The translations under genes and the position numbers were made by a program. Positions 6,223-8,592 of a DNA stretch of 64,000 bases are shown one piece after another. The notes below the pieces were generated by a model. The model was not told the origin of the DNA, made no database searches, and was given only the letters and a program-made list of their open reading frames with translations. This stretch comes from Sporodiniella umbellata (taxonomy: Eukaryota; Mucoromycota; Mucoromycetes; Mucorales; Rhizopodaceae): positions 340,001 through 404,000 of the forward strand of contig JAIXMR010000002.1 of NCBI GenBank assembly GCA_025677835.1, written 5' to 3'. How positions within the stretch are numbered: position 1 is the stretch's first letter; every line of letters begins with the position of its first letter.

Positions 6223-6645
6223 AAAAAAAGAAAAGAAACTCGAAAAATAACAAAAAACAAAAAAATAACAAAACAAAAACCAAAAAAAAAAAAAAAAAAA
6301 AAAAGCTATCAAAACAAACCAAAACCAAACCAATACTCCATTTCTCTTTCTACTCTTTGCTCTGTTTTCTTTTCTTTTTTTTTTTTTTTTTTTTTTTTTC
6401 TGCTCTCTCCTCATCACACACACCCCTCCCCCTTTTTATTTTTATTTTTTTCTCACTTTTAAGGGAAAAAGCACACTTCACGCACACTCTCTCGCACACA
6501 CACATATTTATATATATGTATATATACACCCACACATATACACCCACACTCACTCACACTTATACATATTTATACTTCATCTCTTTCTTGTTTAAAATTA
6601 AAGCCGTCAAAAAAAAAAAAAAAAAAAAGGAAAAAGCTAACCAAC

Positions 6646-6680
<35 letters not shown>

Positions 6681-7096
6681 AAAAACAGCAGTAATTATAA
6701 TATTATTAGTGAATTAAGAACAGGAAAATAAAAATAAAAAAAAAAGAAAAAGAAAAAAAAAAACAGACACTATGTACAAGACATTCATGAACCATTAAAA
6801 GAAAATAACCCCTTCAAAAAAAAAAACTATGTCGCCCGGACTGAGCTTTATGTCGTCCAACCAGAAATAAACGTCTTTCTTTTTTTTTTTTTTTGACATA
6901 CTTTAAAACTTATGCGCGTTGTACTGCTTGAAAGAGATTAAAAACATTCAAGACTTTTTAAAATTTCAAGAGAAAAATGGGAGCTATTTTTTTTTTTTTT
7001 TTTTTTTGGGTTTTATTGTTATAAAAAAAAAAAAAAAAAAAAGAGAAAATAAGACTTAAAAATAAAGAAGCTTGAGAGGGGGGGGGGGGTGAAAAA
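6223..7096. other. Homopolymer-rich 3' flank
   Basis: Dense A and T runs of 10-26 nt, CA- and TA-rich microsatellite-like sequence at 6412-6560, and a G10 run at 7079-7089. The minus strand close to 7097-7150 is a strong pyrimidine tract belonging to the candidate NMT1 3' UTR intron. No coding signal. Confidence 0.55.
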
Positions 7097-7325
7097 CTAC
7101 AATCCAAACGAGAAAAAAAAAAGGGGGGGAAGGGGGAGGGGAAAGGGGTGGATTATGATTGGTCGACAGCTTCCCTTCGCAGGTATTATCCTGATCAGGT
7201 AATGAGAGTTTTTCATTCTCAGCCACAGAACAAAACCTTTTTTACCAGTTCTGTTCATGATTAGTAGCTCCCCTAGTGTCGACCCTCATTATTTTTAAAA
7301 ACAAACAAAACTGGGATAAGGTAAG

Positions 7326-7356
<31 letters not shown>

Positions 7357-7464
7357 GTTTGATTTCGTTGTGTTTGTTTTAGAATGCAAATAAACAGCAA
7401 AGAAAAAGACCGTTCAAGAAACAGATGAGTATACCTTAAGAATCATACAAAAGATGCATTTTAC
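7097..7464 (-). other. Candidate 3' UTR intron of NMT1 enclosing the riboswitch
   Basis: Downstream of the NMT1 stop (7502) two donor-like sites occur on the minus strand, GGTAAAAT with its G at 7464 and GGTATACT with its G at 7434. Downstream of the aptamer a long C/T tract (about 7160 to 7110 on the minus strand) ends in GATTGTAG, whose AG lies at 7098-7097. Donor, aptamer, pyrimidine tract and acceptor are thus in the order needed for a riboswitch-controlled 3' UTR intron. No transcript evidence is available. Confidence 0.5.
7161..7284 (-). promoter_or_regulatory. TPP (THI-box) riboswitch aptamer
   Basis: Read on the minus strand, the element has P1 formed by GGTCGACA (7277-7284) and TGTCGACC (7161-7168), a perfect 8-bp helix. 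Then come the CTAGGGGAGC strand, the conserved CTGAGA (7217-7222), the pyrophosphate-sensor region ACCTGATCAGGATAATACC (within 7178-7200) and the closing GCGAAGGGAAG. AGCTAC pairs with GTGGCT for P2, and ACAGAAC with GTTCTGT extends P3. These are the invariant blocks of the TPP riboswitch class. It sits about 220 nt after the stop codon of NMT1 on the same strand, so it should control that mRNA from its 3' UTR. Confidence 0.93.
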
Positions 7465-7501
7465 CTCCTTTTTCTTTTTTTTTTTTTTTTTTGGTGGTTG
7501 A

Positions 7502-8592
7502 TTAGACAACCGGTAGCTCGGGAGGAGCGATGCTGCTATGTAAGCAACGCGTACAACCTCCTTGGACAACGCCAGTCTCTACCGTCTTGGGCTCTACACC
7601 AGGCGCGGATTCTGCCAAAAGAGGCCAGCTGAGATACTCGTTTGACTGGTTCTGCTTAAAGTCAGCTTGAACAATAGCCAAGCGTTTACAGTAGGCAGTG
7701 ACCTTGTTCCAGTCGCGCTCTACGTTCTTGAGATCACGAGAAAAGTAGCGGAAGGAACGTTGAAAGATCTTGCGATGAATGTCAGTGTTCAATTCGGGCT
7801 TGAACTTGACAAAGCTAGCATAGGCTTCAGCTGGTTGAGCGACCATGTCGTCTGTAGCACGCTTGATGGCACGCAAATACTTTTTGACCTTTTCAGGGTT
7901 CTTCTGGATAAAGTGCGTGTTTCCGATATAGAGAATCTATGAAAAAGATAAAAACGCGTCAGCCATCTGGCAAGCGATGTTAACCATCTTACAGAACAAA
8001 AGCAACAGCAGCCTAGTTCAGCCAACTCGTCAATACGAAGCATTTGCACATCATCGCGCGATCTTCCCTGTTGCACTGACCATTCTTCCAGTTCGACTTG
8101 CTGTACGTTTTCAATCCCGATACCAGCATCGATTTCACCACGAATGATAGCACCTGTCACATTCATACCCACACGGACTGCTTGGTAATCGTTGGGTGTC
8201 ATGTCAAAATGACGCGTCAGTTCGTCCAGTTGAATCTTGCCAAACTCGCCTACGTAACCAATACGTTTGCCTCGGAGAGAACGAAAGTCGGTGATACCAC
8301 TCGAATGACGCAGATGGATGACACCAGTAAAAGGTTCATCGAGCAAAGTGCCGATGGACTGGATGTCATAGCCGCGCGCCTTGCCTGCAATCGTATGAAT
8401 CATGGCTTTAAGACCCAAGTCGGCCTTACCAGACCCAATGATTTCAGTGACATCAGAAGGGTCGTTGGGTTCAAGAATAGCTACTTGAATGCCTTCGTCT
8501 TTAAAGTAACCCTTTTGAGAGGCCAAGAACAAGGGCAAATGGTAGGGGGTAGCCTTCCAGTTCAATAAACACGTGATCTTTTCACTAGACAT
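7502..8592 (-). CDS. NMT1: 4-amino-5-hydroxymethyl-2-methylpyrimidine phosphate synthase (thiamine biosynthesis)
   Basis: Two exons (7993-8592 and 7502-7936) encode 344 residues, close to yeast Thi5 (340). The sequence follows Thi5 from [18 protein letters not shown] onward. Lys62 and His66 in GLKAMIHT match the PLP-lysine and the histidine that Thi5 consumes as substrate, and the CCCFC iron motif lies at 195-199. The enzyme makes the thiamine pyrimidine HMP-P from its own His66 and PLP in a single-turnover reaction, so tight repression of expression is expected. The start is the ATG giving MSSEK; upstream sequence in the same frame is low-complexity leader. The TPP riboswitch 3' of the stop gives a direct feedback control. 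Confidence 0.96.

Follow-up and report, generated by a model that had tools for sequence, protein, structure and literature searches.

Fungal TPP riboswitches studied so far occupy the front of genes or coding introns. According to excerpts of a 2018 survey of 192 fungal genomes, they reside in 5’ UTR introns, in coding introns and in single-exon 5’ UTRs, with the eIF5B gene of Postia placenta as the one 3’ UTR case; an NMT1 riboswitch from Mucor is mentioned as well, in a passage that does not give its position (PMC5882874). A survey from 2024 states in the sections consulted that most fungal TPP riboswitches are located in 5’ UTRs, and describes a TPPsw-SUGAR group that is most abundant in Mucoromycota and consistently assigned to the 5’ UTR; in two Mucor species, ABC ATP-binding proteins without membrane domains were reported to adjoin TPP riboswitches (PMC11683625). 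TPP aptamers in 3’ UTRs have been reported in plants (PMC10226581), in diatoms (PMC9544697) and in Micromonas and Aureococcus (PMC4260697), and in plants and green algae the regulated acceptor AG is reported to be inside P2 (PMC9544697). Since 3’ UTR aptamers thus occur in algae, too, this position is not specifically a plant design.

The present analysis started from a window of 64,000 nucleotides (the whole stretch of DNA analysed) from the genome of Sporodiniella umbellata (Rhizopodaceae, Mucorales). An initial annotation of this window had proposed a TPP riboswitch in the 3’ UTR of NMT1, on the premise that fungal TPP riboswitches sit in introns at the 5’ end of genes and that a 3’ UTR position is the arrangement of plant THIC. 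The surveys assign fungal cases mostly to 5’ UTRs or introns; the second premise is too narrow in view of diatoms, Micromonas and Aureococcus (PMC9544697, PMC4260697). Our searches of openly licensed papers brought up no fungal thiamine gene with a TPP riboswitch in its 3’ UTR, which does not prove that none has been described.

Results

An RF00059 Aptamer behind the NMT1/THI5 Stop Codon

The two-exon model of NMT1/THI5 (Table 1) encodes a protein of 344 amino acids whose sequence agrees completely with public protein P0001 of S. umbellata. Its C-terminal end falls at about the same place in nine homologues, from Rhizopus to Mortierella, so that the stop codon has very likely been placed correctly, without any coding exon after it. 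NMT1 is the sole strong PF09084 match in the genome, with one more that is weak (26.4 bits). A scan of viral contigs revealed no relatives of NMT1 or THI4, and a scan of bacterial genomes gave six NMT1-like bacterial loci, which were left out of the comparison.

At a distance of 217 nt behind this stop, on the same strand, we identified a match to RF00059 with 51.7 bits; its E-value was 3.0e-8 in the whole-genome search and 4.6e-8 when three loci were examined by cmscan. Being 2.6 bits below the gathering score of 54.3, this aptamer escapes a default Rfam scan, and scanning the window at that cut-off returned no hit. The THI-box aptamer that had been claimed for this place, with an 8-bp P1 and CTGAGA on the coding strand 3’ of the NMT1 stop, is borne out in that all named elements could be located and the covariance match, though below the gathering score, coincides with it. 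Judged by eye in the covariance alignment, P2 comprises four standard pairs, of which one is G-U. The minimum-energy fold contains P1, P3, P4, and P5 and has a z-score of -3.9, with 0/200 shuffles as stable; P2 is missing from it, the GAGA of CUGAGA pairing with CUCUC instead. The long P3 also carries a branch-point-like word, TACTAAT (7266-7260), and a donor-like GTAAAA (7245-7240, score 5.0).

Table 1. Features of the NMT1/THI5 gene and its 3’ side in the window of S. umbellata.
Feature	Position	Strand	Basis or score
NMT1/THI5 coding exon 1, ATG at 8592	7993..8592	-	gene model; protein identical to public P0001
Coding intron GTAAGA...CATAG	7937..7992	-	gene model
Coding exon 2, stop TAA 7504-7502	7502..7936	-	gene model and homologue ends
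Three donor-like sites, GTAAAA 7464, GTATGA 7448, GTATAC 7434	7429..7464	-	scores 5.5, 7.1, 2.4
Predicted TPP aptamer (RF00059), extended P3	7154..7284	-	covariance match, fold, motif coordinates
Aptamer P1, 8 bp, GGTCGACA / TGTCGACC	7284-7277 / 7168-7161	-	motif coordinates
Aptamer CTGAGA	7222-7217	-	motif coordinates
Aptamer L5 TAAT	7188-7185	-	motif coordinates
Aptamer GCG	7180-7178	-	motif coordinates
Pyrimidine-rich tract behind aptamer	7099..7151	-	sequence
AG of candidate 3’ splice site TTGTAG	7097..7098	-	score 6.7, attained by 7/68 controls at identical offsets
AATAAA, candidate poly(A) signal of NMT1	7012..7017	-	sequence only

Two Further Aptamers behind THI4 and a Transporter Gene

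A genome-wide RF00059 search (25.9 Mb, 49 of 687 first-look candidates scored) gave two other matches, of 55 and 54.6 bits, both above the gathering cut-off, and the same three matches were obtained when the search was redone at E-values up to 10. All three lie behind a stop codon on the same strand, at distances of 97-217 nt, and none of the three is upstream of a start codon or in a 5’ UTR. One of the additional aptamers is located 97 nt behind the stop of THI4 (locus L002), the gene model of which equals the public protein P0121; the genome contains one strong match to the Thi4 family, which is this gene, and six weak ones. The other is found 147 nt behind the stop of a transporter gene (locus L001, gene model equal to public P0241) that encodes a sugar-porter-family protein of 490 amino acids (PF00083 Sugar_tr, 319.9 bits). 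S. umbellata has a second sugar-porter-family transporter, P0351, which is 40% identical to the aptamer-bearing one and seemingly encoded on the same contig.

The ligand-binding motifs CUGAGA, the UAAU loop, and GCG recur in every one of the aptamers, and the covariance model aligns P1-P5 in each of them. With strands assigned by hand from the covariance alignment, P5 has four of four pairs in every aptamer and P4 has three, four, and four of four, with base pairs in both helices differing between the three RNAs. Fold stability was equalled by 52 (THI4) and 42 (transporter) of 200 shuffles, and the minimum-energy fold of the transporter aptamer, like that of NMT1, lacks the normal P2. Taken from the sequences, the three S. 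umbellata RNAs appear to be TPP aptamers, TPP binding itself being predicted, and the location of such an aptamer in the 3’ UTR of NMT1 is supported and strengthened by the THI4 and transporter cases.

The aptamers might also be intact but without regulatory function, being either relics or elements with another role, such as in mRNA turnover or export, that is independent of RNA processing. Diatoms provide a precedent, as the 3’ UTR TPP aptamers in the excerpted study have kept their sequence and show no response to thiamine (PMC9544697), and the expression platforms of the three S. umbellata aptamers are candidates only. Conservation of the ligand-binding motifs in three aptamers with different helices, as well as the flank word common to two of the genes (see below), would rather fit ongoing selection, and we consider a loss or absence of regulation quite improbable.

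Gene Context of the Aptamers

The transporter is followed by a gene in convergent orientation, consisting of a plus-strand frame of 566 codons and a following exon that ends at L034:2032; the aptamer therefore cannot be the leader of that gene. For NMT1, the closest candidate downstream is likewise convergent, a frame of 106 codons that could be assigned to no known family, and the NMT1 aptamer is likely not the leader of a following gene either. The gene-like frames that come next behind THI4 are in tandem orientation, with an ATG about 250 nt past the aptamer as judged by eye, and gave no Pfam match. Considered alone, the THI4 case could thus be read otherwise, and a survey assigning the next gene as the target would record a 5’ UTR here. 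Nevertheless, that the aptamers are part of another transcript, be it as the 5’ leader of the gene that comes next or as an RNA of their own, seems very far-fetched in view of the convergent genes behind the transporter and, likely though not proven, behind NMT1, and of the fact that NMT1, THI4, and a transporter make up the classic gene association of the TPP riboswitch family. The ABC ATP-binding genes of Mucor might perhaps be neighbours of aptamers that really lie behind other genes.

Splice-Site Candidates

Splice sites were scored with a model derived from 22 introns that were recognised by reading frame in 264 kb, without RNA, to which four donors from the coding introns of NMT1, THI4, and the transporter were added by hand. 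Strict codon-score training had provided 5 introns, and relaxed donor-conditioned training on the 264 kb had provided 54, all of them from the 64-kb window and loci L014-L033; of these, we retained the 22 that had a branch-point word and did not exceed 110 nt, and discarded 32. As controls we used the 460 nt that follow the stop codon in 68 open frames with 200 or more codons, and 4 pairs of these segments overlap; some control frames end inside introns, so that the controls are not all true gene ends.

Each of the three genes has a conspicuous acceptor-like site behind its aptamer. In NMT1, the TAG at 7097 that had been noted after the pyrimidine tract is present and scores highest, 6.7 versus 4.0 for a plant-like AG inside P2 (7274-7273). 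The TTTAG behind the THI4 aptamer scores 9.5, a value reached by 1 of the 68 controls, and the TTTAG behind the transporter aptamer 7.6, reached by 3 of 68. Rival acceptor-like sites are found in THI4 (7.6 at +44 and 8.2 at +375) and in the transporter (7.6 at +626). By eye, no good branch point was seen between the THI4 aptamer and its acceptor. The 3’ side of NMT1 (6300-7510) appears on inspection to be rich in homopolymer runs of A, T, and C, and pyrimidine tracts alone therefore mean little there.

The donor side is less distinctive. Instead of the two donor-like sites that the initial annotation had placed before the NMT1 aptamer, we found three, at 37, 53, and 67 nt past the stop, GTATGA obtaining the best score (Table 1). 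In the same span, 27/68 controls have at least one donor with a score of at least 5 and 5/68 have at least two, so the pair of such donors in NMT1 is not decisive. Between the THI4 stop and aptamer, no donor reaches 2.3, as opposed to 28/68 controls with one that does, and the corresponding segment of the transporter contains two weak donors (3.0 and 4.0), at least one being found in 42/68 controls. Donor-like words are also present inside the THI4 and transporter aptamers (3.5 and 5.2). The NMT1 donors could pair with the aptamer in helices of 8, 7, and 6 bp, which were reached by 33, 50, and 73% of all upstream windows; this complementarity, examined as a sign of plant-like donor masking in NMT1, does not exceed background. 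One of the weak transporter donors pairs with the aptamer over 8 bp, to which 7% of windows come up. The TPP-controlled splicing of the 3’ UTR that had been predicted for NMT1 is possible and suggested by the acceptors of three genes, but the NMT1 donors are unremarkable, those of the transporter are weak, THI4 offers no credible one, and the NMT1 pairing is at background level. If splicing is to account for all three genes alike, a donor is missing in THI4, and a 3’ UTR intron is only suggested.

For THI4, having the highest-scoring acceptor of the three genes and yet no 3’ UTR donor, the switch could instead act on the last coding intron. Depending on TPP, the last coding exon would be skipped and the splice made to the acceptor past the aptamer, or the last intron would be retained; the protein would then be cut short before the conserved GPTFGAMLISG segment. 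Public THI4 models from five other Mucorales, namely Rhizopus stolonifer, Mucor fragilis, Parasitella parasitica, Cunninghamella echinulata, and C. blakesleeana (P0136, P0144, P0142, P0167, P0169), stop shortly after GAPRM-V..., the pattern that a retained last intron would produce, although these models may also reflect unspliced RNA or prediction errors, and a thiamine dependence of the retention is an assumption. Two further models, P0160 and P0152, look like retention of the next-to-last intron. Among the 21 of 120 listed THI4 proteins that were aligned, none showed a join to the downstream acceptor, and the explanation does not extend to NMT1 or the transporter. We regard it as unlikely; as it overlaps with our preferred explanation (splicing to the acceptor behind the aptamer), the confidences assigned to the different explanations do not add up to 1. 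As a side hint, the models may point to variable processing at the 3’ end of THI4 in other Mucorales.

A Sequence Word Shared at the Acceptors

The flanks of the THI4 and transporter aptamers have an exact 12-mer in common, TCTTTAGCAATA, situated at the acceptor. Among 2000 control pairs, 2 had a common word at least as long, and the longest word shared by controls measured 42. The genome contains 23 exact copies of TCTTTAGCAATA on both strands, including the two described here, and 7 copies of the reversed word. We take TCTTTAGCAATA as the best sign of what may be a conserved working part outside the aptamer. An upstream word common to NMT1 and THI4, TTTCTTGAAC, was dropped, as 13% of control pairs have a match of this kind.

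The shared TTTAGCAATA extends past the AG into CAATA, beyond what an acceptor needs, and the THI4 copy of the 12-mer overlaps an AATAAA situated 23 nt past the aptamer. This would be in line with alternative polyadenylation, whereby TPP would lock P1 and shift the use of a poly(A) site by the aptamer, resulting in a shorter or less stable mRNA without any splicing. AATAAA motifs are likewise found in NMT1 (Table 1) and in the transporter, there both before (+27) and behind the aptamer (+486), the transporter being the only one of the three genes with AATAAA ahead of the aptamer. Polyadenylation moreover needs no donor, which would suit THI4. Then again, the element copy in the transporter reads CAATAG rather than AATAAA, all of these AATAAA motifs are candidate signals, and a polyadenylation mechanism that was tested by 3’ RACE in a diatom was not confirmed in the excerpted study, which describes the characterised eukaryotic TPP riboswitches as all working by splicing (PMC9544697). 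We rank alternative polyadenylation second to splicing, as a close rival that in itself is rather unlikely.

The transporter 3’ UTR also contains a 12-bp perfect inverted repeat, noticed by eye (ATAGCCACCAAC / GTTGGTGGCTAT, L001:1377-1388 and L001:1469-1480), which begins directly past the acceptor-like site. In the same gene, a branch-point-like CTAAC precedes a long extended P1 (GUAUAUGAAAAG/CUUUUCGUACAC), with the TTTAG acceptor just past it, and this fold would bring CTAAC and the acceptor together. The duplex energy of the extended P1 was matched by 25% of shuffles in the transporter, 66% in THI4, and 0/500 in NMT1. An extended P1 that serves as a branch-point/acceptor device in the transporter is, at 25% of shuffles, mentioned here as a remark only.

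Discussion

In terms of aptamer family and target genes, the S. umbellata riboswitch candidates resemble fungal types I-III (Neurospora NMT1/THI4, Aspergillus thiA), and the acceptor of types I and III is located behind the aptamer, where an acceptor-like site is present in all three S. umbellata genes (PMC5882874, PMC5997356). However, types I-III reside in 5’ UTR or coding introns and, as excerpted, act via upstream ORFs or premature stops (PMC5882874, PMC5997356), with the type I aptamer carried by an intron that precedes the start codon, whereas in S. umbellata all three aptamers are behind the stop. In the latter respect they come closer to plant THIC, where the aptamer follows the stop of a pyrimidine-synthesis gene and 3’ UTR processing is the suspected output (PMC10226581), and NMT1 also shares the AG inside P2, at a score of 4.0. 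Here, by contrast, the genes are NMT1/THI5, THI4, and a transporter. Furthermore, in plants the 5’ splice site is described as masked and the intron as containing a poly(A) site (PMC10226581), while the donor-aptamer pairing of NMT1 is at background, and the plant acceptor is reported within P2 (PMC9544697), while the best-scoring one of NMT1 is behind the aptamer.

The transporter case recalls the TPPsw-SUGAR group, likewise a TPP aptamer by a sugar-transporter-family gene in Mucorales, but the survey excerpts place this group in the 5’ UTR (PMC11683625) and the S. umbellata copy is 147 nt behind the transporter stop. The 3’ UTR aptamers of diatoms, Micromonas, and Aureococcus belong to unrelated lineages, and the diatom aptamer that was tested did not respond to thiamine according to the part of the study consulted (PMC9544697, PMC4260697). 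P. placenta eIF5B provides another fungal TPP aptamer that has been called 3’ UTR, yet it concerns a non-thiamine gene, and in the excerpted text the structure check did not confirm it (PMC5882874).

We propose that a TPP riboswitch ends each of NMT1, THI4, and the sugar-porter-family transporter gene, in the 3’ UTR. Judging from the TPP riboswitches studied in fungi, plants, and green algae, TPP binding would lower expression of these genes. The output, and this is the least certain step, would be RNA processing at the 3’ end, most likely with TPP altering the use of the pyrimidine-TAG 3’ splice site directly behind each aptamer. Processing at the 3’ end seems likely because a processing-type element is shared directly behind the aptamers and because the characterised eukaryotic TPP riboswitches, as described in the sections consulted, act on splicing (PMC9544697, PMC10226581). 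For TPP feedback by 3’-end processing via splicing to the acceptor behind the aptamer, we estimate a probability of about one half.

Details of such splicing can be sketched for two of the genes. In NMT1, an mRNA spliced past its stop codon could become a target for decay. The limit for nonsense-mediated decay in other eukaryotes is 50-55 nt, and with donors at 37, 53, and 67 nt past the stop an exon junction is possible on either side of it; the Mago and UPF3 families, parts of the nonsense-mediated decay pathway, are encoded in the S. umbellata genome. In THI4, either the last coding intron or the aptamer itself would have to supply the donor.

Conclusions

As a set, NMT1, THI4, and the transporter indicate that the same sensor can occupy the other end of a gene, and two of these gene-end platforms have a conserved element in common. 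The fungus thereby offers a lineage apart from plants for testing 3’ UTR riboswitch control. The 2024 survey’s 5’ UTR placement of sugar-transporter aptamers in Mucoromycota, as given in its excerpts (PMC11683625), fails for the S. umbellata copy, and the NMT1 copy escapes the default cut-off of Rfam. Tentatively, and with somewhat less confidence than in the mechanism itself, we suggest that the Rhizopodaceae, perhaps the Mucorales, have relocated their TPP riboswitches, which once stood ahead of thiamine genes, into the 3’ UTR, where TPP would control 3’-end processing via a fixed acceptor or processing element directly behind the aptamer. If this is true, published 5’ UTR calls for Mucoromycota need revision, and fungi would possess a 3’ UTR riboswitch mode that evolved apart from that of plants. 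For S. umbellata, our findings suggest that the fungus may control NMT1, THI4, and the transporter through processing of the tails of their messages.
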